Both the position numbers and the translations under genes were made by a program. Positions 3,411 to 42,243 of a DNA stretch of 42,560 nt are shown piece by piece. How positions within the stretch are numbered: position 1 is the stretch's first letter; every line of letters starts with the position of its first letter. Source of the stretch: a virus. The notes beneath the pieces were generated by a model. That model made no database searches. It was not told the origin of the DNA and was given only the letters and a program-made list of their open reading frames with translations. Location of the stretch: positions 1 through 42,560 of IMG/VR virus record IMGVR_UViG_3300034146_000019; one strand, given 5' to 3'.

Positions 3411-3581
3411 TTGTTTTGAGGTCAGGGGCGAAAGGACTCGGCGGGAGTGTGCGCGTTTGTTGGAGTATCGCGCGTGGTTACTCAGCAAAAAGTACCATCA
3501 TATTGTGAGTCGTCCACCCCCGGCGTAACGTTGTTGTTCTCTCCATCACGCCCCCACCACGCGACCGAGCAAACTGCCCCA

Positions 3582-3818
3582 ATGAAGAGCAACCGAACCA
3601 GCCTAACCGTAGTCGCTGTCTCGTTCGTAGCGCTGCTCGCTGCAGCAGCCTGTAACTCGCCGACTCCCACGACGCCGCTTCGCTCCCCCGTAAGTGGCCC
3701 CACCGCGCCGAGCAAGGGGATCACTACCGACACCACACTCACCACCACGAACTCGCCCCCGCCGCTTGAACCCCCCGACACTACCAACCGGGGCGGGCAT
3801 GGGTCAGGCGTTGGCTGA
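3582..3818 (+). CDS. Small Pro/Thr-rich predicted lipoprotein (prophage cargo)
   Basis: A 78-residue protein starting MKSNRTSLTVVAVSF with a hydrophobic core and a cysteine after AAAA, which fits an exported lipoprotein. The mature part of about 55 residues is almost all Pro, Thr, Ser and Gly with no recognisable fold. It diverges from the lipoprotein gene at 2922-3410 with 171 bases between the two starts, and converges on the TPR gene, with a hairpin between. Its position beside a TPR/repressor operon invites comparison with secreted peptide signals, but nothing in the sequence proves that. Confidence 0.5.
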   Translation: MKSNRTSLTVVAVSFVALLAAAACNSPTPTTPLRSPVSGPTAPSKGITTDTTLTTTNSPPPLEPPDTTNRGGHGSGVG

Positions 3819-3819
3819 A

Positions 3820-3849
3820 GGGGGGAGGGCGAGCGTCTTCGCACCCCCC
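3820..3849. terminator. Hairpin between convergent genes
   Basis: GGGGGG (3820-3825) pairs with CCCCCC (3844-3849), and inside that GCGA (3829-3832) pairs with TCGC (3839-3842). It sits 1 base after the + strand lipoprotein stop and 21 bases beyond the 3' end of the leftward TPR gene, so it could end both transcripts. There is no clear T-tract. Confidence 0.45.
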
Positions 3850-3870
3850 ACCGCGCGAGCCTAACGGGCT

Positions 3871-5211
3871 TTACAGCGCGAGACACGGTACCAGGGCCTC
3901 CACGATCTCCGCCTTGAGGAGCCCAGACACCACCCCCTCGCCCTCCCACCTCAGCGGGGGTACGTCGCAAGACGTGCCCCCGCATTTCAGTGCGCCTAGG
4001 AGCTGGTCCGCCTCGATCGCGATCCTGCCCTCTTTGCGCTCTATCGCAAGCTGCAGCGCTTTGGTTGCCGCGAGCACCGCCCTCGAAAAGTCTCCCATAA
4101 AGTGAGCAGCGTGGGCAAGGTGAAGCAGGGATTCAGCTACATCCTCTCGGGTCACAGCGAGCGCGGCAATCGCCCAGGTCGCGTCCCACGCCTGGTGGTA
4201 CAGTACAGCGTCTCCGGAGCCAGCCGCGGCGCGGCATGTTTGCGCATGCCAGATCATCTGGTTGCGCGGCTCGGTCATGTACGGTTCCACTGCGTGTTGA
4301 ACTTCGAGCGCCAAGCGGTAACGCCCTTCCAGGAGGAACAGCTGCCCCACGTCAGCCGCAAGGTGCGGGAGAGTGGGGTGTCCCCGGTCATACCCCCGCA
4401 GCGCCAAAGAGGCCTGCTTACGTGCCTCAGAGAAGTTTTGAATCTCCAGCTCCAGCAAAAACCACTCATGGTGAGCGCTACCCGCGAGACCGCCCGCTTC
4501 AGCGGTAGTTGTCACCTGTACCGCGTCTGCGTAGTGCTGGCGAGCCTTCGGGAGATTCCCCTGTTGCCGAGCTACGTTGCCGAGGCCGATATGCGAGGCG
4601 GCAACGATCCCCCACTCGCCCGCCGCCTCTCCCACGTTGATAGCCCGCCTGAACTCACGCTTGGCCTCTGCATACCTTGACCCCGCGCGTGCAGCTCGGC
4701 CGCGCTGGTATGCAGCATTAGCCGTCCTCACCCCGCGCGTGACAGACTGAACGATCGGCTCCAGGCGCTTCGTGAGGCGATTTCGATACCAGCTTTCCCC
4801 CAGTCCGACCCTGAGATCGGCGACCCCGAGAGCCACGACACGCTCGACGTCAGGACAGAGCGCGGGGGGCACGATCGTACCTGCGAATGCGAAGCACTCA
4901 GCCAAGAGCTTCGCATGTTCGACATCGCCAGCAAGGAAGCGGCCCACCTCCTCAAGTGTGACAAAGCGCTTGCACGTGAGGTTCAGACTGCTCTGCAGAA
5001 ACAGAGCACGCCAGTGCTTCGGCGCTGGGATGAGCAGTGACCCAACCTCCATGTCCCACTCAGCAACGAACAGGCGCACGTGATCCAGCAGCGCTCGAAT
5101 GTCCTCGTCACGAAGCGCGAAACACGCGAAGCGCGGGACCACTTGGCGCGCTCGCTCAATGAGCTCCTGTGTCGCGTCGACTAACGCTTGATGCTGCTGG
5201 TCGTTCTTCAT
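3871..5211 (-). CDS. TPR-repeat protein in operon with phage repressor
   Basis: A 446-residue cytoplasmic protein with a helical N-terminal region (about 1-160) and tandem TPR-like helix pairs from about 160 to 400 (for example ANAAYQRGRAARAGSRYAEAKREFRRAI and HIGLGNVARQQGNLPKARQHYADAV). No catalytic motif is visible. The ATG at 5211 has an AGGAAG ribosome site and lies 56 bases inside the repressor gene, so the two are co-transcribed and probably co-translated. TPR proteins of this layout act as protein- or peptide-binding switches (RRNPP regulators are one example). Here it may bind the repressor. That role is inference from operon position only. Confidence 0.75.
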   Translation of the reverse strand: MKNDQQHQALVDATQELIERARQVVPRFACFALRDEDIRALLDHVRLFVAEWDMEVGSLLIPAPKHWRALFLQSSLNLTCKRFVTLEEVGRFLAGDVEHAKLLAECFAFAGTIVPPALCPDVERVVALGVADLRVGLGESWYRNRLTKRLEPIVQSVTRGVRTANAAYQRGRAARAGSRYAEAKREFRRAINVGEAAGEWGIVAASHIGLGNVARQQGNLPKARQHYADAVQVTTTAEAGGLAGSAHHEWFLLELEIQNFSEARKQASLALRGYDRGHPTLPHLAADVGQLFLLEGRYRLALEVQHAVEPYMTEPRNQMIWHAQTCRAAAGSGDAVLYHQAWDATWAIAALAVTREDVAESLLHLAHAAHFMGDFSRAVLAATKALQLAIERKEGRIAIEADQLLGALKCGGTSCDVPPLRWEGEGVVSGLLKAEIVEALVPCLAL

Positions 5212-5770
5212 GTGTCGCTTCCTGGAAATTTTCTTCTAGTATTCGACTGATCAACCCGAGGCGCTCCAGCTTCTCCGGGGGCCAGCTGCGAAGCTTTCCG
5301 TACAGCTGAGCTGCCGTCATCACCAGCTGCACGGTCACTGGCCCCGTTCCGTACAGCAACCTCACCTCAGCGGCAAAGCTGAGCGCCCGCATGAACTCCT
5401 CCACCTCATCTTCCTCATCCCCACCGTCTTGACTTGGCGGTGCCTCTCCTCCTCCGTCGACGGCACGTTGCGCTTCCAGAGTGGGCGCACGGGCTCTCAC
5501 GGTCGACTCAGCCGGCGGCGGCGGGTCTGAGCCGCCGAGGAGCAACCACCTCGCATCTGCCCCAAGGGAAGCCAGCAGCTCGTAAACCTCAGCGCGGGGC
5601 TTCGCAGCACCAGTCTCGTAGTTGAAGATCGTCTTAGCCGTCACCCCGAGCAGGTCTGCCAGCTGCTCCCGCGTCTGGCCGACATCCTCACGGGCGCGGC
5701 GGAGGCGCTTCCCCCGCACGGCTTCGGGAGCGTCACTGTTTTCGGGGTCCAACCGTGACCGACTGGTCAC
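5156..5770 (-). CDS. XRE-family repressor (c-repressor analogue)
   Basis: A 204-residue protein with an XRE-type helix-turn-helix at about residues 19-75 (RLRRAREDVGQTREQLADLL, KTIFNYETGAAKPRAEV), a Pro/Glu-rich linker, and a helical C-terminal part (about 120-185). It is divergent from ner, exactly where Mu carries its repressor, so it is the likely keeper of lysogeny. I see no LexA-type S24 peptidase Ser/Lys pair, so RecA-driven self-cleavage is not expected. The GTG start at 5770 has a strong GGAAGG ribosome site. A perfect dyad (5751-5774) covers the start codon, suggesting autoregulation. Confidence 0.8.
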   Translation of the reverse strand: MTSRSRLDPENSDAPEAVRGKRLRRAREDVGQTREQLADLLGVTAKTIFNYETGAAKPRAEVYELLASLGADARWLLLGGSDPPPPAESTVRARAPTLEAQRAVDGGGEAPPSQDGGDEEDEVEEFMRALSFAAEVRLLYGTGPVTVQLVMTAAQLYGKLRSWPPEKLERLGLISRILEENFQEATHEERPAASSVSRRDTGAH

Positions 5771-5774
5771 GGTT
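5751..5774. promoter_or_regulatory. Perfect 10-bp dyad over the repressor start (operator candidate)
   Basis: AACCGTGACC (5751-5760), four bases, then its exact reverse complement GGTCACGGTT (5765-5774). It overlaps the repressor GTG start and ribosome site, so binding here would block repressor expression. Candidate autoregulatory or Ner operator. Confidence 0.6.
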
Positions 5775-5832
5775 TCCTTCCGGCGTCAATCTTCGCCATA
5801 AGTGTAATGCCGGTAAGATTCTTCTGGTAGTC

Positions 5833-6270: not shown

Positions 6271-8352
6271 ATGCAAGCGCTCCTCCGCCCCGCGCTCGAT
6301 GTCCGCGCCCCGCAATTGTACATGCACAATCCCGAAAGGGGCAAGCCCGCCGTCGAGATGCCGGGGGAAGATGTTCGCGGTGAACAGTCGCAGGAGGAGT
6401 TCTTCGGGGTCGCCCATCTAGCGGGTGCGCCTGGGTTGCCGGCGACGAAGAGCGGGGTGATCCGGCGGGCCGAGCGCGACGGATGGAGGTGGCGCACCAG
6501 GCGTGGGCAAGGGGGTGGTCGCGAGTACCATATCTCCAGCCTGCCAGCGGAAACGCGCGCCCACCTGATCCTCAAGGCGCGGCGCGCCTCCTCCTCCGAG
6601 ACACCCGCGGCCGCGGCCTCTCCTGCACGTGGGGCTCGTGCGGCCAGCTCGGAACTTTGGGCTCAATGGGAGGCGAAGCCCCCTGCGTTCAAAGAGGAGG
6701 CGGAACGTCGGCTCAACGTCCTGGTCACCGTGGACGAGCTGGTGCGGGGTGGCGCTACGAAATCCGAGGCATACGCGGTGGTGGCGATGCAGGCGGGCGA
6801 GAGCGTCTCGACCGTCCGCCGGTGGATCCGGTCAGTGGCCGGCGCCCACCAGGGGGACTGGCTCCCGCTCCTGGCGCCACGCTGGACCGGCCGGACCGCC
6901 TTCGCCGAGTACGACGAGCGGGTCTACCAGTGGTTCCGCGACCTGTACCTGAGCCAGTCGCAGCCCCCGGCCACCAGGTGCTATGAGCGCGTCCAAGAGA
7001 TCGCGCGGAAGGAGGGGCTCACGGTGCCGAGCGTGAAGACGCTGATGCGCGAGCTGGAGCGCCGGGAGGACCCGGTGGTGATCGCGCTGGAGCGGTTCGG
7101 CGAGCGTCACGCCGCGGAGATGTACCCGTACCTGCAGCGCGATCGCAGCGGCTTCCGCGCGATGGAGGCGCTCAACGTCGACGGGCACAAGCTGGACCTC
7201 GATGTGGTCTGGCCTGACGGGGAGCGGGTGCGTGCGGTGCTGATCGCGTTCCAGGACCTCTACAGCGGGATGATCGTGGGGTGGCGGCTGGCGAAGGCAG
7301 AGACGGCATTCGGGATGGGACTGGCCTTCCTGGAGGTGTGCGACCGCTACGGCGTCTGCGAGCACCTGTGGGTGGACAACACGCTCGCGATGGCCAGCAA
7401 GAAGATGACGGCCGGCGCCACGGGCCGTAAGCGATTCCGGGATCGCGAGGGCGACCCGGTCGGCGTGATGCCGAAGCTCGGCGTGAAGGTGCACTTCACG
7501 ATGGTGGCGCACGGCCAATCAAAGCCGATCGAGCGGGCCTTCGGCGATCTCGCCACCAACCGAATCGCGAAGCACCCCGCCTTCGAAGGCGCGTACCTCG
7601 GCCGCAACACCGTCAGCAAGCCTGAGAACTACGGCACGAAGACGGTGCCGGTGGCCGAGGTGGAGCGGATCACCGAGCAGGAAGTCCTCCGGCACAACCA
7701 GCAGCTGCGGCGCCGCACGGAAGTCTGCGCCGGCGAGCGGAGCTTCCAAGCCGCGTTCGAGGCGAGCTATGGGCAGCACGCCGCCGCGATCCGGCGCCTC
7801 ACCCCGGCGCAGCGCCGGCTCCTGTTCCTGATGTCCGACCGGGTCACCGTGGACCGCCGCGACGCGTGCGTGAAGCTCTTCGGAAACCGCTACTGGAGTG
7901 AGGACCTGCTGCGGTTCCGCGGCAGTGAGGTGGTGGTCCGGTACCACCCGGTGGAGCGGACGCTACACGACGCGGTCTACGTGTACGGCCTCGGAGGCGA
8001 CTTCATCGCCGAGGTGCCCTGCTACCACGCGGCGGGCTTCGCCGACGCCGAGGCGGCGCAGCGCCACAACCGCGCGCGCAGCCAGCACACGAGGCAGAAG
8101 AAGAAGCTCGCGCAGGCGAGCCGCCACCTGGAGGCGGCGCAGGTTGCCGCGCTGGTGCCGCAACTGGCGCCGCCACCGATGCCGCAGCTGGCCGGCGACG
8201 TGGTGCGCGTGGACTTCGCGCAGCCCAGCACCCTCGACAGGATCGCCACCATCCTGCCGGCGGATCCCAGCCCGGAAGAGGCGCAGGCTCGCGTCAACGC
8301 CGGTCTCGCGAGAGTCTCGGACGAACTCGGCCGCGCGTTACGCGCCGGCTGA
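6271..8352 (+). CDS. A: MuA-type transposase (DDE integrase)
   Basis: A 693-residue transposase that cuts and joins the phage ends. An N-terminal Mu winged-helix domain (about residues 45-100: FFGVAHLAGAPGLPATKSGVIRRAERDGW) is followed by further DNA-binding helices, then an RNase H-like core. The catalytic triad is readable as D304 (LNVDGHKLD), D369 (WVDNTLA) and E421 (SKPIERAFGDL), with spacings near those of MuA (269, 336, 392). The C-terminal beta-barrel and MuB-contact region follow to the end. The domain set is complete. It should bind the CACTTGATTTG-type sites at both prophage ends. Confidence 0.96.
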   Translation: MQALLRPALDVRAPQLYMHNPERGKPAVEMPGEDVRGEQSQEEFFGVAHLAGAPGLPATKSGVIRRAERDGWRWRTRRGQGGGREYHISSLPAETRAHLILKARRASSSETPAAAASPARGARAASSELWAQWEAKPPAFKEEAERRLNVLVTVDELVRGGATKSEAYAVVAMQAGESVSTVRRWIRSVAGAHQGDWLPLLAPRWTGRTAFAEYDERVYQWFRDLYLSQSQPPATRCYERVQEIARKEGLTVPSVKTLMRELERREDPVVIALERFGERHAAEMYPYLQRDRSGFRAMEALNVDGHKLDLDVVWPDGERVRAVLIAFQDLYSGMIVGWRLAKAETAFGMGLAFLEVCDRYGVCEHLWVDNTLAMASKKMTAGATGRKRFRDREGDPVGVMPKLGVKVHFTMVAHGQSKPIERAFGDLATNRIAKHPAFEGAYLGRNTVSKPENYGTKTVPVAEVERITEQEVLRHNQQLRRRTEVCAGERSFQAAFEASYGQHAAAIRRLTPAQRRLLFLMSDRVTVDRRDACVKLFGNRYWSEDLLRFRGSEVVVRYHPVERTLHDAVYVYGLGGDFIAEVPCYHAAGFADAEAAQRHNRARSQHTRQKKKLAQASRHLEAAQVAALVPQLAPPPMPQLAGDVVRVDFAQPSTLDRIATILPADPSPEEAQARVNAGLARVSDELGRALRAG

Positions 8353-13604: not shown

Positions 13605-14409
13605 GGGAACTGGCATTCAGTGGACTGATGCGACGTGGAACCCCACGGTCGGGTGCACCAAGGTCTCCGCGGGCTGCGCACGCTGTTATGCGAAGACGCT
13701 CCACGACATGCGGCACAAGGCGCATCTGCAGGGTAAGAGGATGGCGCCGCAGTACTCAGTCCCCTTTGGACAGGTACAGACGATCCCGGCGCGGCTCGGC
13801 GCGCCCGCCAGGTGGAAGCGCCCGCTCAAGATCTTCGTCGATTCGGTAAGCGACCTGTTCCACGAGCAGGTTCCCTTCAGCTTCATCGCCGAGGTGTTCG
13901 ACGCGATGGCCATGGCGGACTGGCACACCTACCAGGTGCTCACGAAGCGCATCGATCGGGCGCTGCAGTTCTTCCTCTGGTACCAGTCCCGGTCGGTTGT
14001 GGAGGGAGGAGTCCGCGTCGGTGATCGCGCGCCGATCACGTTCGAGGCGGCGTTCAGGCACGTGCACCTCGGCGTCAGCGTCGAGAACCAGGATGCTGCC
14101 GAGCGGCGCGTCCCGCTGCTGCTTGCGGCGCCGTTCGCGGTGCGGTGGCTCTCGTGTGAGCCGCTGCTGGGCCACGTCGATCTCTCGCGCTGGATCCGGT
14201 ACCTGCAGTGGGTGGTGTCGGGGGGTGAGAGCGGCCGCGCCTTCCGCGCGCTCAACCTCGATCATGCGCGCAGCCTGCGCGACCAGTGCATCGCGGCCGG
14301 GGTCCCGTACCTGTTCAAGCAGGTGGGCGGGCACACCCCGAAGGCGGGCGGGCGGCTGCTGGACGGGGTGGAGTGGGATCAGTTCCCGGAGGTGACCAGT
14401 GTCGGGTGA
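13597..14409 (+). CDS. DUF5131 / phage Gp37-Gp68 family protein
   Basis: A 270-residue protein starting GIQWTDATWNPTVGC, the signature of the DUF5131 (phage Gp37/Gp68) family. Cysteines 20, 27 and 30 (C-x6-C-x2-C, ending in CYA) and KIFVDSVSDLFHE resemble radical-SAM-like folds, but no reaction is established to my knowledge. In other genomes the family often pairs with a three-Cys-motif partner protein (TcmP); no such partner is seen here. It overlaps mor by 8 bases and the next gene by 11. Confidence 0.88.
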   Translation: MGKGTGIQWTDATWNPTVGCTKVSAGCARCYAKTLHDMRHKAHLQGKRMAPQYSVPFGQVQTIPARLGAPARWKRPLKIFVDSVSDLFHEQVPFSFIAEVFDAMAMADWHTYQVLTKRIDRALQFFLWYQSRSVVEGGVRVGDRAPITFEAAFRHVHLGVSVENQDAAERRVPLLLAAPFAVRWLSCEPLLGHVDLSRWIRYLQWVVSGGESGRAFRALNLDHARSLRDQCIAAGVPYLFKQVGGHTPKAGGRLLDGVEWDQFPEVTSVG

Positions 14410-14677
14410 CTGTCTCGACGCGCTCGCTGCTCTTCGACGACTCGCCCGTGTCGCGGACGGTGTCGACAACGGGTACTGCCGGCTCTGCGGAGCTCATAGG
14501 CGCCGGGGCTCCGCTTGCGAAAACGACGACTGCCCTTCACATGAGGTCGAGGCGGTCTTATGCGCTTACCTCGCGCGCCGTCGATCGAGAGAGCGGAGTG
14601 ACGCCGAGCAGCTCGCGCAGCTGGAGGAGGACCGCCGCGACTTCTTCCGAAAGACCGGAGGTGTCGTCCATGGGTGA
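14399..14677 (+). CDS. Unknown small Cys-rich protein
   Basis: A 92-residue protein with a GTG start inside the end of the DUF5131 gene and a stop inside the start of the BCS1-like gene. CRLC and CENDDC give a C-x2-C-x8-C-x4-C pattern like a compact zinc finger; after it comes a helical charged tail (SDAEQLAQLEEDRRDFFRKTG). Tight overlaps on both sides support translation. No known family recognised. Confidence 0.6.
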   Translation: MSGDCLDALAALRRLARVADGVDNGYCRLCGAHRRRGSACENDDCPSHEVEAVLCAYLARRRSRERSDAEQLAQLEEDRRDFFRKTGGVVHG

Positions 14678-15902
14678 GCTGGGCTCCGCGATTCGCTCGG
14701 CGTTCGAATCGCAGCTGTTCTCGGGAGGCTTTGCCCTGATGGTGGTGGGCGCGGTGATGGCGCTCCTCCGCAGCGTTCCGTTCCGGGCGCTCGCTGTGCT
14801 GAAGCGCCGTATCGTCGTGGAGGTGGAGGTGCTCTCTAGCGACCCGCTATTCGGCTTCGTGACGGTGTGGCTGGACGCGCAACTGTGGAGCCGCGACGCG
14901 CGTTCCCTCACCGCCAGCATGCGCGCTAACTCGTCTGCCGCCGAGCGTCGGCCGAACCCGATCGTCTTCACCCCTGCACCGGGCAACCATCTGTTCTGGT
15001 ACCGCGGACGTCCCATCTGGCTGATCCGCGAGCGGACCGACAGCAAGGGCGAGCGCGGCTGGGACGCGTTCAGAGAGACCATCAAGTTCCGGATGTTGGG
15101 CAAGGACCCGTCGGCCGCGCGGGCGCTTCTACGCGAGGCTCACGACCTTGCGACCGACGATGATCGCCGTGTAAGTGTGCACACGCTGGTGTGGTCGGAA
15201 TGGCGCCGTCTCACCGAGGTGCGTCCGCGCCCGCTCTCCTCCGTGTTCCTGCCCAAGGGCGAGCTAGAACGGCTCGTGGCTGACGCGACGGAGTTTCTCG
15301 CGGCGGAATCCTGGTACAGCGAGCGCGGAATACCCTGGCGCCGGGCGTATCTTCTGGAGGGGCTCCCCGGAGCGGGGAAAACATCAGCGATCGGCGCGCT
15401 GGCCGGACACCTCGGGATGGACCTCTACATCTGCGGCCTGGCTGGGAAGGAGATGGACGACAACCGCCTCGTGTCTGGGTTGCTGAATGTGCCGGCGAGA
15501 TCGATCATCCTGCTGGAGGATGTCGATTGCGTTGCGAGCGGGCGCGATATGCAGGGAGAAAGCGGGGTCACGTTTGCGGGGCTCCTGAACGCTCTCGATG
15601 GTGTGGCTTCGCGACCAGGCGTGCTCACGTTCCTCACCACGAACCACGTCGAGAAGCTGGATCCGGCCCTGGTTAGGCCCGGCCGGGTGGATACTCGCCT
15701 GCACTTCGGTGCAGCCACACGCGAGCAGCTCGTGCGGATGTTCCTCCACTTCTACGGGAAGCCCGAGCTCCGAGATCTTGCTGAGGCCTTCGCAGTGCTG
15801 ATGGAAGGGAGGGTGATGGCCCATGCCCAGCAAGTGTTGCTCGATCACAAGGACGCGCCACACAGCGCTGTGGATTCGGTTCAGGCGGCGCGGGGCGCGT
15901 GA
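14670..15902 (+). CDS. BCS1-like membrane-anchored AAA ATPase
   Basis: A 410-residue protein with the layout of BCS1. One N-terminal membrane helix (about 18-38: GGFALMVVGAVMALLRSV) is followed by a BCS1-specific region (about 45-200) and an AAA module. Walker A is GLPGAGKT (231-238), Walker B SIILLEDVDC (278-287), and the late TTNHVEKLDPALVRPGRVD segment carries sensor and arginine-finger residues. RPLSSVFLPKGELERL just before the AAA is also typical. In mitochondria Bcs1 moves a folded protein across the inner membrane; the bacterial and phage role is unknown. It is the last gene of the early/middle block, and core Mu has no equivalent. Confidence 0.88.
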   Translation: MGELGSAIRSAFESQLFSGGFALMVVGAVMALLRSVPFRALAVLKRRIVVEVEVLSSDPLFGFVTVWLDAQLWSRDARSLTASMRANSSAAERRPNPIVFTPAPGNHLFWYRGRPIWLIRERTDSKGERGWDAFRETIKFRMLGKDPSAARALLREAHDLATDDDRRVSVHTLVWSEWRRLTEVRPRPLSSVFLPKGELERLVADATEFLAAESWYSERGIPWRRAYLLEGLPGAGKTSAIGALAGHLGMDLYICGLAGKEMDDNRLVSGLLNVPARSIILLEDVDCVASGRDMQGESGVTFAGLLNALDGVASRPGVLTFLTTNHVEKLDPALVRPGRVDTRLHFGAATREQLVRMFLHFYGKPELRDLAEAFAVLMEGRVMAHAQQVLLDHKDAPHSAVDSVQAARGA

Positions 15903-25729: not shown

Positions 25730-26620
25730 ATGCTCGTAAACCAGGACAGTCTGAGGGCCCTGTTCACGGGGTTCAAGGGGGACTTCAACAAGCAGTTCGC
25801 CGCCACGGAAAGCATGTGGGAGCGGATCGCGATGCTGTCCCCCAGCACGAAGTCGGAGGAGCGCTACGACTGGCTCGGCTCGATCCCTGGCTTCCGGGAG
25901 TGGGTGGGCGAGCGGGTCGTGAACAACCTGGGGAGCCACGGGTTCACGCTCCGCAACATCCCGTTCGAGCTGACGATCGGGGTGAAGCGCGAGAACATCG
26001 AGGACGACAACATTGGCGTCTACAAGCCCGCTATCGAGATGATGGGTATGCAGGCGAAGCAGCACCCCGACACGCTCGTGTTCTCACTCGTCCGCGAGGG
26101 GTTCCGCCGCAAGTGCTTCGACGGCCAGTTCTTCTTCGATACGGATCACCCGGTGCTCGCGGCCGACCGGACGGAAGTGTCCGCTTCGAACTGGCAGGGT
26201 GGAGACGGCCCGCTTTGGATTCTGCTGGACACGACGAAGCCGATCAAGCCGTTCATCTTCCAGCGCCGGAAGGACTACACCTTCGTTCCGATGGACTCAC
26301 CTACCGACGAGCAGGTCTTCACCCGCGGGGAGTTCCGCTACGGTGTGGACGCGCGCGGCGCAGCCGGGTTCGGGCTCTGGCAGCTCGCCTACGGCAGCCG
26401 GCAGCCGCTGACCAGGGAGACATACGAGGCGGCATACGCGGCGATGCAGAGCCTCAAGAAGGACGGTGGCGATCCGCTGGGTGTGCGTCCCGACCTACTC
26501 CTGGTCCCCGCGGCGTACCGGTCTTCTGCGCTGGAGATCACCAAGGCCGAGAAGCTGGATGGCTCCACTAACATCAACCGCGACTCGGCCGAGGCACTGG
26601 TGTGCCCGTGGCTGGACTGA
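25730..26620 (+). CDS. T: Major capsid protein (Mu gpT-type)
   Basis: A 296-residue major head subunit with HK97-like fold expected for the family. Landmarks are LFTGFKGDFNKQF near the start, DWLGSIPGFREWVGERVVNNL, PFELTIGVKRENIEDDNIGVY, FFDTDHPVL, and the C-terminal PDLLLVPAAYRSSALEI. The length matches Mu T (305). It is followed 11 bases later by a gp35-like gene. The start at 25730 is the only plausible one. Confidence 0.94.
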   Translation: MLVNQDSLRALFTGFKGDFNKQFAATESMWERIAMLSPSTKSEERYDWLGSIPGFREWVGERVVNNLGSHGFTLRNIPFELTIGVKRENIEDDNIGVYKPAIEMMGMQAKQHPDTLVFSLVREGFRRKCFDGQFFFDTDHPVLAADRTEVSASNWQGGDGPLWILLDTTKPIKPFIFQRRKDYTFVPMDSPTDEQVFTRGEFRYGVDARGAAGFGLWQLAYGSRQPLTRETYEAAYAAMQSLKKDGGDPLGVRPDLLLVPAAYRSSALEITKAEKLDGSTNINRDSAEALVCPWLD

Positions 26621-26631
26621 AGGGGGCGCGC

Positions 26632-26841
26632 ATGGCAGAGACGAAGCACAGGGTACGCACCCGCTCCCGATCCGACGCGGGCTTCCGGCGCGCCGGCCTG
26701 CGCCACACGCCGGAGCCCCAGGAGTTCGAGGTCACGGCCGAGCAGCTGGAGTCGCTGCTGGGCGAGAAGCAGGAGCTGGTAGTGGAAGTGCTGGACGGCG
26801 AGTCGGACGCCGCCGGGGCGAAGAAGGGCGCAGGGAAGTAA
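26632..26841 (+). CDS. Mu gp35 / HI1506-like small protein
   Basis: A 69-residue protein. The pattern GFRRAGLRHTPEPQEFEVTAEQLESLLGEKQELVVEVL matches the small Mu gp35/HI1506-type proteins that follow the capsid gene in Mu-like phages. The rest is basic N-terminally and Lys/Gly-rich at the end. Function unknown. It is the last gene of the head block; the tRNA-like gene begins 27 bases later. Confidence 0.7.
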   Translation: MAETKHRVRTRSRSDAGFRRAGLRHTPEPQEFEVTAEQLESLLGEKQELVVEVLDGESDAAGAKKGAGK

Positions 26842-26867: not shown

Positions 26868-26968
26868 GCTGCGGTAGCGTAATTGGCAACGCACGGCAGG
26901 CGGCGGCTGGGCTGCGACCCACCGCCGTTCGCCAGCCGAGAGTCCGGGTTCGAATCCCGGCCGCAGCT
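26868..26968 (+). tRNA. tRNA-like gene with greatly extended anticodon arm
   Basis: A tRNA cloverleaf is clear. Acceptor GCTGCGG (26868-26874) pairs with CCGCAGC (26961-26967); T8 and A9; D stem GCGT/ACGC with an AATTGGCA loop; A26; a 5-base variable loop AGAGT; T stem CCGGG/CCCGG with the canonical TTCGAAT loop. But the anticodon arm (26894-26938) is 45 bases, not 17. CGGC/GCCG, an A-A mismatch, GGCG/CGCC, GCGG/CCGC and TGGG/CCCA stack into a rod of about 16 pairs with loop CTGCGA. No normal 7-base anticodon loop can be drawn. CCA is not encoded and T's follow. It may be a non-coding tRNA mimic, an intron-bearing tRNA or a decayed tRNA. Confidence 0.7.
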
Positions 26969-27024
26969 TTTTTCATCGGGCGTTCCATCAAACGCCGCAC
27001 ACACCCCCTCTCAGGCGAGACGGC

Positions 27025-27447
27025 ATGTACGCGAGCGCGGCGGACCTCCTGGAGCGGTTCCCAGAGAACGACCTGATCCAGCTGACCGATCCCAACGGCG
27101 CGGTCCTGAACGTCGGGAAGCTGGAAGCCGCGCTCGCGGACGCCTCGGCCGAGATCGACGGGTACCTGCAGGCCAGGTACCCGCTCCCGCTTCCGCGGGT
27201 GCCGGCGCACCTGAAGACGCTGGCATGTACGATCGCCGTGTACCGGCTGCAGATCGATCGCCGGACCGAGACGATCGCGGACATTCGGAAGCAGTACGAG
27301 GATGCAGTCCGCCTGCTGGAGCGGGTGAACGCCGGGACGCACCAGCTGGGGATCACCGTCGATCAGCAGCCCGTGCAGCAGAGCAGTGGGATCGAGGTCC
27401 TGGAGGGGACCCGCGTCTTCTCGCGCGGCAGCATGGGCGGGTACTGA
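27025..27447 (+). CDS. Mu gp36-like protein (DUF1320)
   Basis: A 140-residue DUF1320 head-tail connector-type protein. MYASAADLLERFPENDLIQLTD, ALADASAEIDGYLQARYPLPL and LACTIAVYRLQ are typical of the family. It follows the capsid block and overlaps gpG at TGATG. Its likely place is the neck between portal and tail (family knowledge). Confidence 0.9.
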   Translation: MYASAADLLERFPENDLIQLTDPNGAVLNVGKLEAALADASAEIDGYLQARYPLPLPRVPAHLKTLACTIAVYRLQIDRRTETIADIRKQYEDAVRLLERVNAGTHQLGITVDQQPVQQSSGIEVLEGTRVFSRGSMGGY

Positions 27448-39300: not shown

Positions 39301-39326
39301 CGTGTGCGGAGGGTGGGGAGATGGGA

Positions 39327-39370
39327 AACACCCCTGACTCCCCCCTGACGCCTGACGGGGGGGAGGTGTT
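39327..39370 (+). terminator. Terminator-like hairpin at prophage right end
   Basis: CTCCCCCC (39338-39345) pairs with GGGGGGAG (39358-39365), and outside it AACACC (39327-39332) can pair with GGTGTT (39365-39370). It follows the last prophage gene and probably stops late transcription before the host. It runs into the R2 transposase site. There is no clear T-tract. Confidence 0.5.
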
Positions 39371-39413
39371 CAAATCATGTGGCCGCGCTGTTCAAATCAA
39401 GTGGCGCGCTACA
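39367..39413 (-). other. Prophage right end with two transposase-binding sites (attR)
   Basis: On the minus strand, CACTTGATTTGAACA (39389-39403, R1) and CACATGATTTGAACA (39367-39381, R2) lie exactly 22 bp apart, two helical turns, like R1 and R2 of Mu. R1 begins 10 bases inside the terminus, the same offset as L1 at the left end. The terminus itself reads TGTAG on the minus strand and ends at 39413. Confidence 0.85.
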
Positions 39414-39418
39414 CCCGC
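39414..39418. repeat. Target-site duplication, right copy (CCCGC)
   Basis: CCCGC directly outside the right terminus, identical to 2756-2760. Confidence 0.85.
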
Positions 39419-39424
39419 CCTGCG

Positions 39425-39440
39425 CCCCCGCAGGCGGGGG
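39425..39440. repeat. Host GC hairpin next to insertion site
   Basis: CCCCCGC (39425-39431), AG, then GCGGGGG (39434-39440), a perfect 7-bp stem. It lies 11 bases from the insertion point. The remaining host gap to 39542 is GC-rich with runs of G and C and shows no gene; any promoter for the following amidohydrolase must lie here, since the phage separated it from upstream DNA. Confidence 0.55.
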
Positions 39441-39542
39441 AGGGGGTCGGGGGGAGGGGGCCCCTCTTCGCCGTTGCCCCATCCCGCCCCTGCCCCCATC
39501 TTGCCCGCGCCCGCCCTGTACCGCCTCCCTTCGCTTCGCCCA

Positions 39543-41099
39543 ATGCAGCCTGACCTGATCGTCGTCGCGGACCGCATCCACGTGCTGGGGACCCATGCGC
39601 CGGTGAGGGCGCTGCTGGTGCGCGAGGGGCGCGTGGTCGCGCTCGGGAGCGAGGAGGAGGTGCGGGCGGCAGCGAAGGCCGGGTACAAAACGAAGCGGCT
39701 GGATGGGGCCACCGTGACGCCGGGGCTCACCGATGCGCACGTGCACCTGACGCTGTGGGCGATGGCGCGGCGGCGTGTGGACCTGAACGCCGCGCGCACG
39801 CCGGAGGAGGGCGTCGCAGCCGTGGCCGCGGCAGGGGGCGAGGGGTGGATCAGGGGGCTGGGGTGGGACGTGCACCGGTGGGGACGCTTTCCATCGCGCA
39901 ACGATCTGGATTCGGCCGTTCCGGGGCGGCCGTGCTACCTGGAGAGCCACGACATCCACGCGGCGTGGCTGAGCTCCGAGGGGCTGCGGCGGTGCGGGAT
40001 CACGCGCGACACGCCCGATCCCGAGGGCGGCACCATCGTGCGCGACGCGGCGGGGGAGCCGACCGGCATCCTGCTGGAGACGGCGAAGCTGCTCGCCGAG
40101 GCGCACCTCCCTGTCCCGACCGCGGCGGAGGTGCGGGAGGCGCTGCTGGATGCGCAGAGCGCCGTGCACGCGCTGGGGCTGACCGGCGTGCACTCGGTGG
40201 AGGCCACGGGGATCGAGGACTTCACGTCGATGCAGGCGGATGGCGTGCTGCGCCTGCGCGTGCTGCAGGCGATTCCGCTGGCGCGGCTGGACGCGGCGAT
40301 CGAGCTGGGGGTGCGGAGCGGCTTCGGGGGGGAGTGGCTGAAGCTGGGCGGGGTGAAGATGTTCCTCGACGGCGCGCTGGGGTCGCGCACGGCGTGGCTG
40401 CGCGAGCCGTACGAGGGGAGCACCGACGAGCGCGGGATCCAGACGCTCGCCTCGGACGAGTTCCGCGCGCACGTGCGCCGCGCGGCCGATGCGGGGATCG
40501 CCTCCACGGTGCACGCCATCGGCGACGCGGCGGTGGAGCTGGCAATCGACGTGATGGGGAGTGTGGCGCCGCCCCGGGCCATGCGGCACCGCATCGAGCA
40601 CCTGCAGCTCTGCCCGCCCGAGCTGTGGGATCGCGCGGCGCGCTCCGGGATCGTGGCCTCCGTGCAGCCAGTGCACCTGATGACCGACATCCCTGCCGCC
40701 GAGCGGCACTGGGGGCATGAGCGCTCGCGCGGCGCCTACCCCTTCGCCGCGGTCAAGCGCGCTGGGATGGTGCTCGCCTTCGGGTCCGATGTGCCAGTGG
40801 AGACGGTCGATCCGCGCCCCGGCCTCTTTGCCGCCGTCGCGCGCCGCGGGTGGGATGGCGGGCCGGAGGGCGGATGGTTCCCCGAGCACTGCATCTCCGC
40901 CGACGATGCGCTGCGGGCGTACACAGAGGGGCCCGCCTTCGCCGCGAACGAATCAGACCGGCAGGGGCGCCTGCTCCCGGGCTATCACGCGGACCTCGTC
41001 GCCTGGGACCGCGATCCGCTGGAGGTGCCGGCGGACGAGCTGCGGACGATGGAGTGCGTGCTGACGATGGTGGGCGGGGAGGTGGTGCACCGCGTATGA
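39543..41099 (+). CDS. Amidohydrolase family protein (Amidohydro_3, YtcJ-like)
   Basis: A 518-residue metal-dependent hydrolase. H66 and H68 in VTPGLTDAHVHLTLW are the first metal ligands; KMFLDGALGSRTAWL, STVHAIGDAAVELAID, MRHRIEHLQLCPPE and AFGSDVPVETVDPR are the family blocks, and PGYHADLVAWDRDPL closes the protein. The family hydrolyses amide bonds in small molecules; the substrate cannot be read from sequence. The ATG at 39543 fits the family start; the longer frame upstream runs into phage DNA and is not real. Confidence 0.92.
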   Translation: MQPDLIVVADRIHVLGTHAPVRALLVREGRVVALGSEEEVRAAAKAGYKTKRLDGATVTPGLTDAHVHLTLWAMARRRVDLNAARTPEEGVAAVAAAGGEGWIRGLGWDVHRWGRFPSRNDLDSAVPGRPCYLESHDIHAAWLSSEGLRRCGITRDTPDPEGGTIVRDAAGEPTGILLETAKLLAEAHLPVPTAAEVREALLDAQSAVHALGLTGVHSVEATGIEDFTSMQADGVLRLRVLQAIPLARLDAAIELGVRSGFGGEWLKLGGVKMFLDGALGSRTAWLREPYEGSTDERGIQTLASDEFRAHVRRAADAGIASTVHAIGDAAVELAIDVMGSVAPPRAMRHRIEHLQLCPPELWDRAARSGIVASVQPVHLMTDIPAAERHWGHERSRGAYPFAAVKRAGMVLAFGSDVPVETVDPRPGLFAAVARRGWDGGPEGGWFPEHCISADDALRAYTEGPAFAANESDRQGRLLPGYHADLVAWDRDPLEVPADELRTMECVLTMVGGEVVHRV

Positions 41100-41458
41100 G
41101 CGACGAGACGACGACGCTCTGGCGTCCCGTGGGCGAGGCGGAGCTGGCGCTGATCCGGGAGAGCGGGTGGACGGCATTCCCGCCGCGGCTCGCGCACCAG
41201 CCCATCTTCTACCCTGTCACGAACGAGGCGTACGCCGCGCAGATCGCCCGCGACTGGAACACGCGCGACGCCGCTTCGGGGTACGTGGGATACGTGACGC
41301 GCTTCGAAGTGCGGACCGGTTTCCTCAGCCGGTACACTCCTCGCGTCGTGGGCGCGAGGGGGCACGAGGAGTACTGGATACCGGCCGAGGATCTGGAGGA
41401 ATTCAACAGGAATCTTTTGGGGCCAATCACAGTCGCGGCGGAATTCAGACCGGAGTAG
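41096..41458 (+). CDS. ADP-ribosylation/crystallin J1-like small protein
   Basis: A 120-residue protein of the small family usually labelled ADP-ribosylation/crystallin J1, recognised from LWRPVGEAELALIRESGWTAFPPRLAHQPIFYPVTNEAYAAQIARDWN, GYVTRFEV and EEYWIPAEDLEEFNRNLLGPI. It is far shorter than true ADP-ribosylglycohydrolases and no catalytic site is evident. It sits between the amidohydrolase (ATGA overlap) and a Sir2 deacylase (5-base gap). The function is unknown. Confidence 0.75.
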   Translation: MSDETTTLWRPVGEAELALIRESGWTAFPPRLAHQPIFYPVTNEAYAAQIARDWNTRDAASGYVGYVTRFEVRTGFLSRYTPRVVGARGHEEYWIPAEDLEEFNRNLLGPITVAAEFRPE

Positions 41459-41463
41459 CCTTC

Positions 41464-42243
41464 ATGCCGAACAAGATCCTGGTATCGCCCGACGTTATGG
41501 CCGCCGCGGCGGACGCGCTGGCGCGGGCGCGGCGCGTCGTCGTGTCCACGGGGGCGGGGATGTCGAAGGAGAGCGGCATCCCCACCTTTCGCGATGCGAT
41601 GGAGGGTCTGTGGGCCGAGTTCGACCCGCAGGAGCTCGCCACCGAGCAGGGGTTCCGCGCGAACCCGCGGCGCGTGTGGAGCTGGTACGCGTGGCGCCGC
41701 CGCCGCGTGGCCGAGGCCGCGCCGCACCAGGGATACCTCGCGGTGACGGAGCTCCAGCGCCTGCTGCCGAGCGTCACAATCGTAACGCAGAACGTGGACG
41801 GCCTCCACGCCGTCGCCGGCTGCGACGACGTGGTGGAGCTTCACGGCAACATCCGCCGGCTCCGCTGCCTGGACGCCGGCCACCCCGTCGCCGGCGACAT
41901 CCCGGGCGATGAGGACGGGGAGTGCGATCCGCCGCCCTGCCCGGCGTGCGGGTCGCCGCTGCGGCCCGACGTGGTCTGGTTCGGGGAGATGCTGCCGAAG
42001 CAGGCGGTGGAGCGCGCGTGGGACGATGCTCGCCGCTGCGACGCCCTCCTCCTGGTGGGGACCTCCGGGACGGTGTGGCCCGCGGCCGATCTGCCCCACA
42101 TCGCGCGGTCCAACGGCGCGTTCGTCATCGAGGTGAATCCCGAGCCGAGCGAGCTGACCGGCATCGCCAACGTGTTCCTGCAGGGGACGGCGGGCGGCAT
42201 CCTGCCGCGCCTGGTGCAGGAGGTGCGGGCGCGGAAGGGGTGA
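41464..42243 (+). CDS. cobB: Sir2-family NAD-dependent protein deacylase
   Basis: A 259-residue class III sirtuin. It has the NAD-binding GAGMSKESGIPTFRD (30-44), TQNVDGLH (108-115), catalytic H127 in ELHGN, and RPDVVWFGE. Y75-x2-R78 (YAWR) is the pair that favours succinyl/malonyl-lysine in CobB/SIRT5 types, so desuccinylation is possible. The first zinc pair is unusual: C135 is followed by LDAGH rather than a second Cys at 138, with H140, C154, C159 and C162 as candidate ligands. The length is normal. Confidence 0.92.
   Translation: MPNKILVSPDVMAAAADALARARRVVVSTGAGMSKESGIPTFRDAMEGLWAEFDPQELATEQGFRANPRRVWSWYAWRRRRVAEAAPHQGYLAVTELQRLLPSVTIVTQNVDGLHAVAGCDDVVELHGNIRRLRCLDAGHPVAGDIPGDEDGECDPPPCPACGSPLRPDVVWFGEMLPKQAVERAWDDARRCDALLLVGTSGTVWPAADLPHIARSNGAFVIEVNPEPSELTGIANVFLQGTAGGILPRLVQEVRARKG

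Follow-up and report, generated by a model that had tools for sequence, protein, structure and literature searches.

Between the capsid and connector genes of a Mu-like prophage lies a tRNA-like RNA with a complete tRNA body, in which a 16-bp rod stands in place of the anticodon arm (Table 1). The prophage is contained in the window, i.e. the whole stretch of 42,560 nt that was analysed, corresponding to positions 1 to 42,560 of IMG/VR record IMGVR_UViG_3300034146_000019. The structure is real and unusual, it was correctly described in a first-pass annotation made from the sequence alone, and no homologue was found in the searches of viral sequences reported below. Judging from its sequence and setting, it is tentatively considered, with a probability of about 45%, a phage-borne, non-decoding tRNA-like RNA that would be matured by host enzymes from the late structural transcript. 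If expressed, it would represent a viral RNA which keeps the tRNA body and drops decoding, and it would make it possible to ask cleanly what benefit, translation apart, a phage draws from an RNA shaped like a tRNA.

Body and rod of the tRNA-like RNA

The Rfam tRNA model (RF00005) places the RNA on the plus strand at 26868-26968, exactly to the base where it had been annotated, and scores it at 50.2 bits, above the gathering score of 29. The alignment runs over the full length of the model (1-71), with 37 residues placed as an insert at the anticodon arm, and it is the single RF00005 match across the 42,560-base record. ARAGORN makes no tRNA call in the window. All 16 pairs of the acceptor, D and T stems (7, 4 and 5 bp, respectively) are present, together with U8 and A9 between the acceptor and the D arm, A26 before the 45-nt arm, G18, G19 and A21 in the D loop (AATTGGCA), and a T-loop of the type TTCGANN. 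The normal L fold fits as well, with U8/A14, A15/U48, G18/U55, G19/C56 and U54/A58 all compatible. The acceptor, D and T arms and the 5-base variable loop are as canonical as was originally claimed, with all body pairs and the core tertiary residues intact. Position 73 is a T, the first of a run of six, and no CCA is encoded. The D arm is also present in ordinary phage tRNAs.

Table 1. Coordinates of the tRNA-like RNA, its parts, the neighbouring genes and the ordinary tRNAs in the same interval of two relatives (window positions unless a contig is named)
Feature	Position	Strand	Basis
Major head protein, Mu gpT type	25730..26620	+	phrog_371, E 3.8e-115
Small ORF, 69 aa, stops 26 nt before the RNA	26632..26841	+	phrog_3622, E 2.3e-5
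Whole tRNA-like RNA, through position 73	26868..26968	+	RF00005, 50.2 bits, E 2.4e-9
Acceptor stem 5' strand, GCTGCGG	26868..26874	+	7/7 pairs with 26961-26967
D arm, GCGT-AATTGGCA-ACGC	26877..26892	+	4/4 pairs; G18 G19 present
Rod, 45 nt, 16 bp, apical loop CTGCGA, replaces anticodon arm	26894..26938	+	folding
28 nt whose removal leaves the least bad arm; self-complementary hairpin	26899..26926	+	relaxed deletion test
Variable loop, AGAGT	26939..26943	+	sequence; U48 can pair with A15
T arm, CCGGG-TTCGAAT-CCCGG	26944..26960	+	5/5 pairs
Acceptor stem 3' strand, CCGCAGC	26961..26967	+	sequence; CCA not encoded
Six-T run directly 3' of the acceptor stem	26968..26973	+	not called in terminator scan
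Head-tail connector gene, 3' of the RNA	27025..27447	+	phrog_195, E 4.6e-44
Ordinary tRNA-Met(CAT), encoded CCA, capsid-connector interval of Mu-like phage	L101 14177-14252		
Ordinary tRNA-Met(CAT), encoded CCA, capsid-connector interval of Mu-like phage	L119 13997-14073		

Folding reproduces the arm as it had been drawn, with 45 bases, about 16 bp, the same four helices and a CTGCGA apical loop. The rod consists of CGGC/GCCG, an A.A mismatch, GGCG/CGCC, GCGG/CCGC and TGGG/CCCA, with a bulged 3' strand, and it occupies the site where a 17-nt anticodon arm would stand. Its pairs have probabilities of 0.84-0.99, one alternative pair excepted. None of 200 shuffles is as stable as the whole RNA (-55 kcal/mol, z -3.4). 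The rod alone is less striking than the whole RNA (z -2.3, p 0.027 in GC-rich sequence), and an end-to-end unbranched rod is obtained in 3% of the shuffles of the arm sequence. For such GC-rich DNA, the rod folds modestly better than chance, not extremely so. Neither the window nor the fetched loci contain a second copy of the rod.

GCTGCG, from the acceptor 5' strand, occurs again at the apical loop, where it could pair with the acceptor 3' strand. A structural switch of this kind is not supported, since the alternative fold, in which the acceptor 5' strand is blocked, is 11 kcal/mol worse (-44.2 vs -55.0 kcal/mol). For the T run after the acceptor stem, a role as terminator is possible; the acceptor stem before it closes a multibranch loop, and a scan for intrinsic terminators calls none at 26968-26973.

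A tRNA decodes on the ribosome with its loop at the decoding site and, at the same time, its acceptor end in the peptidyl-transferase centre. Instead of the 5-bp anticodon stem, 7-nt loop, U33 and purine 37 of a decoding tRNA, a 16-bp rod with a 6-nt loop is found. As the rod exceeds a 5-bp anticodon stem by about 11 bp, the RNA cannot read codons in its present form, which bears out the earlier remark that it has no usable anticodon. It is not a class II tRNA either, as the extra bases precede the 5-nt variable loop and a normal arm placed at 27-43 would have only 2/5 pairs. According to parts of a review of non-canonical natural tRNAs (PMC7609411), the anticodon stem is consistently 5 bp, the deviations given there being 6-bp stems. 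In the open-access literature, preprints and most subscription journals aside, no description was found of a phage tRNA in which a rod replaces the anticodon arm.

A strict deletion test, in which any one contiguous piece is removed and the product must have five paired bases, U33, purine 37 and pyrimidine 32, finds no excision from the RNA that yields a canonical anticodon arm. In a relaxed form of the test, the best product is CGGCA-GTTCGCC-AGCCG, in which the removal of 28 nt leaves a near-normal 4-bp stem and U33 together with an A.A mismatch, G32 and C37. A healthy bacterial tRNA would show none of the latter three. The 28 bases by which the RNA had been said to exceed a normal class I tRNA form a self-complementary hairpin of their own, the exact cut being ambiguous by a base or two; no second copy of this hairpin exists within the window.

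The capsid-connector interval of the prophage and its relatives

The record represents a Mu-like prophage, with a MuA-type transposase (6271-8352), a MuB-type ATPase, GemA and a gp27-like protein, followed in the late genes by terminase, portal, protease, gpT-type capsid, connector, tail sheath and tape measure. A BCS1-type AAA ATPase (BCS1_N + AAA; phrog_7485) is encoded within the prophage at 14286-15902. At the left edge (318-2434) a PLP-enzyme domain protein (Ala_racemase_N), DivIVA and a purine nucleoside phosphorylase (PNP) are found, and at the right edge (39321-42243) an amidohydrolase and a Sir2 protein. Both groups are probably host genes, so the record would be an integrated copy of the phage, and they suggest a GC-rich bacterium as host.

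The RNA fills a 183-nt gap between the small ORF and the connector gene. It had been reported to sit alone between the capsid and connector genes, which is accurate insofar as the record has no other tRNA match, but the small ORF (26632-26841) intervenes. This ORF is conserved: similar small genes occur in relatives, and its motif recurs in two of them (L113 and L094). Between the T run and the connector start, a hairpin GGCGTT-CCATCA-AACGCC can be read by eye at about 26978-26997. A tRNA body without a usable anticodon, alone of its kind in a phage structural operon, supports a non-decoding role for the RNA as it stands, as the first-pass annotation had suggested.

About 240 viral contigs were collected in portal, connector and capsid searches, and the comparison set comprises 172 loci holding both capsid and connector. 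As a query, the single capsid sequence returned no viral contig, and better results came from a capsid alignment and from the portal and connector. No homologue of the RNA or of the rod was found among the 172 loci with both flanking genes, so the selection on the flanking arms invoked in the first-pass annotation is presumed only. Two of them (L101 and L119) have a tRNA between capsid and connector, in both cases an ordinary tRNA-Met(CAT), and RF00005 run over the records of 50 relatives agrees with this result. A tRNA body is therefore tolerated or used at this point of the operon, although its presence in only 2/172 relatives indicates that a tRNA is not a fixed part of it. In L113, the closest relative with the full region (capsid 56% identical), the small gene runs to the connector and leaves no gap. 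The contigs nearest by portal, L083 and L084 (about 60% identity), break off before the RNA site. A 'tRNA-Asp' called by ARAGORN in L094 was rejected as false, as it falls within the connector gene. A D-arm pattern search of IMG/VR returned nine ordinary phage tRNAs and no rod homologue, and BLASTN of the RNA against isolated phages gave short matches only or nothing.

The ordinary tRNAs in the same interval of L101 and L119 give weight to the main rival explanation, in which an ordinary phage tRNA at this site was killed recently by a self-complementary insertion or expansion of about 28 nt in its anticodon loop, leaving the body undecayed. The hairpin nature of the excess, the near-normal stem with U33 left after its removal and the lack of a conserved homologue among the relatives searched would all fit such a history. 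However, with every body pair and the core tertiary positions intact, such damage could only be very recent. Furthermore, the hairpin occurs just once in the window, and the leftover loop, with its C37 and A.A pair, is unlike that of a recently healthy tRNA. A damaged cargo tRNA is thus considered unlikely, if the most serious of the competing explanations.

Overlong tRNA-like RNAs in other phages

IMG/VR was scanned for the D-arm and T-arm consensus at abnormal spacing (at least 120 contigs). At least 91 matches have an acceptor with at least 6/7 pairs as well as paired D and T stems, representing at least 81 distinct middles. At least 14 of these matches are class II tRNAs whose anticodon arm is normal. 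A rod closed by 4 bp or more was at first counted in at least 27 middles; five of these carry the motif ACAGCAA, leaving at least 22 rods, the one in the window included. They adjoin varied genes, in phages of varied gene context. When 27 rod records were checked with RF00005, the rod was the sole tRNA match in the window, L254, L260, L266, L298, L314 and L326, and several others were tRNA-rich. BLASTN of six long-middle RNAs (L254, L261, L266, L287, L309 and L312) against isolated phages gave short matches or nothing. Rare RNAs of the same plan, i.e. a tRNA body with a rod, occur in unrelated phages.

A GC-rich variant of the scan pattern matched six contigs only, so rods like that of the window are rare. 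The same pattern gave one real case in 284 Myxococcota genomes, two further matches being neighbouring tRNA sequence. Phage-specificity of the rods was dropped on account of this case, and enrichment in phages is not claimed, as the rate per tRNA gene may be similar. ARAGORN makes no call for the RNA of the window nor for several other rods; because it passes them over, such RNAs are likely under-counted.

Several further features were noted in phage contigs. L261 is a second transposable-phage-like record with a rod, its tRNA-like RNA (5725-5829) lying directly upstream of a phage transposase gene (3527-5710, phrog_310). A recurrent middle in L234, L293, L310, L273 and L296 is built around a hairpin GGY-NAAGG-RCC, which shows compensatory changes; a TCATGG-like stretch that overlaps the hairpin start is conserved, and the hairpin is followed by an A-rich stretch. 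Long-arm bacterial tRNAs are normally those for Leu, Ser or Tyr; the class II tRNAs of L213, L214, L216, L226, L243, L253, L258 and L286 have the anticodon UAU in a loop CTTATAC. ARAGORN identifies tmRNA genes in two tRNA-rich phage contigs (L252 5689-6059 and L279 11414-11864), a third contig has a permuted tmRNA (RF04321, L256 4623-4908), and a Pistol ribozyme with 37.6 bits, above the gathering score, is found in phage contig L199 (6503-6562, minus strand).

What is probably a family of small introns in phage tRNAs came to light in the same IMG/VR scan. In at least 23 of the at least 81 distinct long middles, a hairpin and, about 2 nt downstream of it, ACAGCAA or a close variant are found (members include L210, L222, L237, L252, L256, L265, L267, L270, L276, L285, L287 and L294). 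The chance rate of the motif is 4%, and a stem of at least 5 pairs is present in 23/23 compared to 31% of shuffles. The inserts, of 39-48 nt, interrupt the anticodon stem in its 5' strand; their hairpin measures 5-8 bp, varies in sequence and usually ends in a tetraloop that begins with G. Removal of the insert yields a canonical arm in 13 of these 23, with anticodons such as GGT, GTT, TTT, GAT, TGT and TCC. Based on these features, the hairpin-ACAGCAA inserts are probably a mini-intron family of phage tRNAs, possibly akin to the introns reported in tRNAs of Lak megaphages (PMC6784885).

Both the Lak introns and this family, whose arms are perfect once 39-48 nt are taken out of the anticodon stem, bear on the small intron that the first-pass annotation had allowed as another reading. 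In that case, 28 nt would be removed from a precursor to give a working tRNA with the anticodon UCG (Arg) or similar. Excision from the RNA of the window leads only to the degenerate loop described above (A.A, G32 and C37), and no deletion gives five paired bases with U33 and purine 37. The negative outcome of the strict test is itself weak, since this test recognises 13 of these 23 members of the probable intron family and misses 10; the intron reading is therefore only weakened. In addition, the RNA has no ACAGCAA motif and so lacks the mark of the hairpin-ACAGCAA family, and its fold has no archaeal-type bulge-helix-bulge. An intron-bearing tRNA appears, on these grounds, quite improbable.

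The RNA could also be viewed as a decoy, and lone rods do occur in several phages. In such a role, the tRNA body and CCA tail would occupy host enzymes or defences acting on the body or tail, while the rod would provide immunity to anticodon nucleases. Immune systems directed at tRNAs, and counter-measures by which phage tRNAs respond, have been documented (PMC10264068, PMC11555353), and Cas12a3, a tail-directed nuclease that cuts tRNA tails (PMC12851939), would be the kind of enzyme that a body-only decoy could occupy. The published counter-defence by phage tRNAs rests on tRNAs which still decode (PMC10264068, PMC11555353), the idea being that loop changes make them resistant to anticodon nucleases (PMC10264068). 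However, anticodon nucleases require a loop, and the RNA of the window has no anticodon loop to offer them, so the earlier suggestion of a decoy specifically for these enzymes is not supported. Moreover, nothing in the sequence singles out a decoy role, which makes it the least probable of the explanations considered.

Proposed role and comparison with known systems

The preferred reading remains that of a non-decoding tRNA-like RNA matured by host enzymes. The RNA would be made as part of the late structural transcript. RNase P would cut at 26868 by recognising the acceptor-T body, and RNase Z or exonucleases, with CCA addition, would act on the U-rich 3' side, such that the host tRNA maturation enzymes would excise the RNA from the mRNA and protect it. 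The body might then be a processing point separating the capsid message from the connector message, and/or a scaffold presenting the rod. Operon processing or scaffolding seems the likeliest use, and since neither needs an anticodon, the arm would be free to become a rod. This reading is supported by the intact body (16/16 pairs and core tertiary residues) next to an arm that is an end-to-end rod, by the closed gap in the closest complete relative (L113), by the ordinary tRNA-Met in the same interval of L101 and L119 and by the recurrence, beside varied genes of other phages, of perfect tRNA bodies that carry a tight rod. As rods elsewhere are not known to lie in structural operons, operon processing cannot explain all of them. 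A wider proposal, that phages use tRNA bodies as scaffolds for diverse host-matured, non-decoding RNAs in which the anticodon arm is swapped for a payload hairpin, the RNA of the window included, is conceivable from these sequences but doubtful.

Compared to known systems, the RNA has the acceptor, D and T arms, variable loop and tertiary positions of ordinary phage tRNAs (RF00005), among which those with the D arm GGTAGCGTAATTGGNAACGC are His, Gln, Lys, Thr and Ser tRNAs. It differs from them in having a 45-nt rod instead of the anticodon stem-loop and in not encoding CCA. The tRNA genes of Lak megaphages are likewise phage tRNA genes lengthened by inserted sequence, but these tRNAs are predicted to decode after intron removal (PMC6784885), whereas no excision restores a canonical arm in the RNA of the window.

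The match to the mascRNA-menRNA model (RF01684) is weak, with 22.7 bits against a gathering score of 42.5, and the overlap is that of two tRNA-like RNAs. mascRNA and menRNA are tRNA-like processing modules that RNase P and RNase Z cut and that take no part in decoding. The likeness lies in a tRNA-like module that does not decode; the context of mascRNA is a eukaryotic long RNA, and the processing of the RNA in the window is a prediction. The tRNA-like transcripts of Gammaherpesvirus 68 are likewise viral, tRNA-like and not for decoding, but they are set apart by the microRNA hairpins that follow their tRNA part and by their synthesis by RNA polymerase III. In engineered tRNA scaffolds, a payload replaces the anticodon arm. 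These share the molecular plan of the RNA described here, a tRNA body with a foreign hairpin for the anticodon arm, the difference being that the RNA of the prophage is natural and its payload putative.
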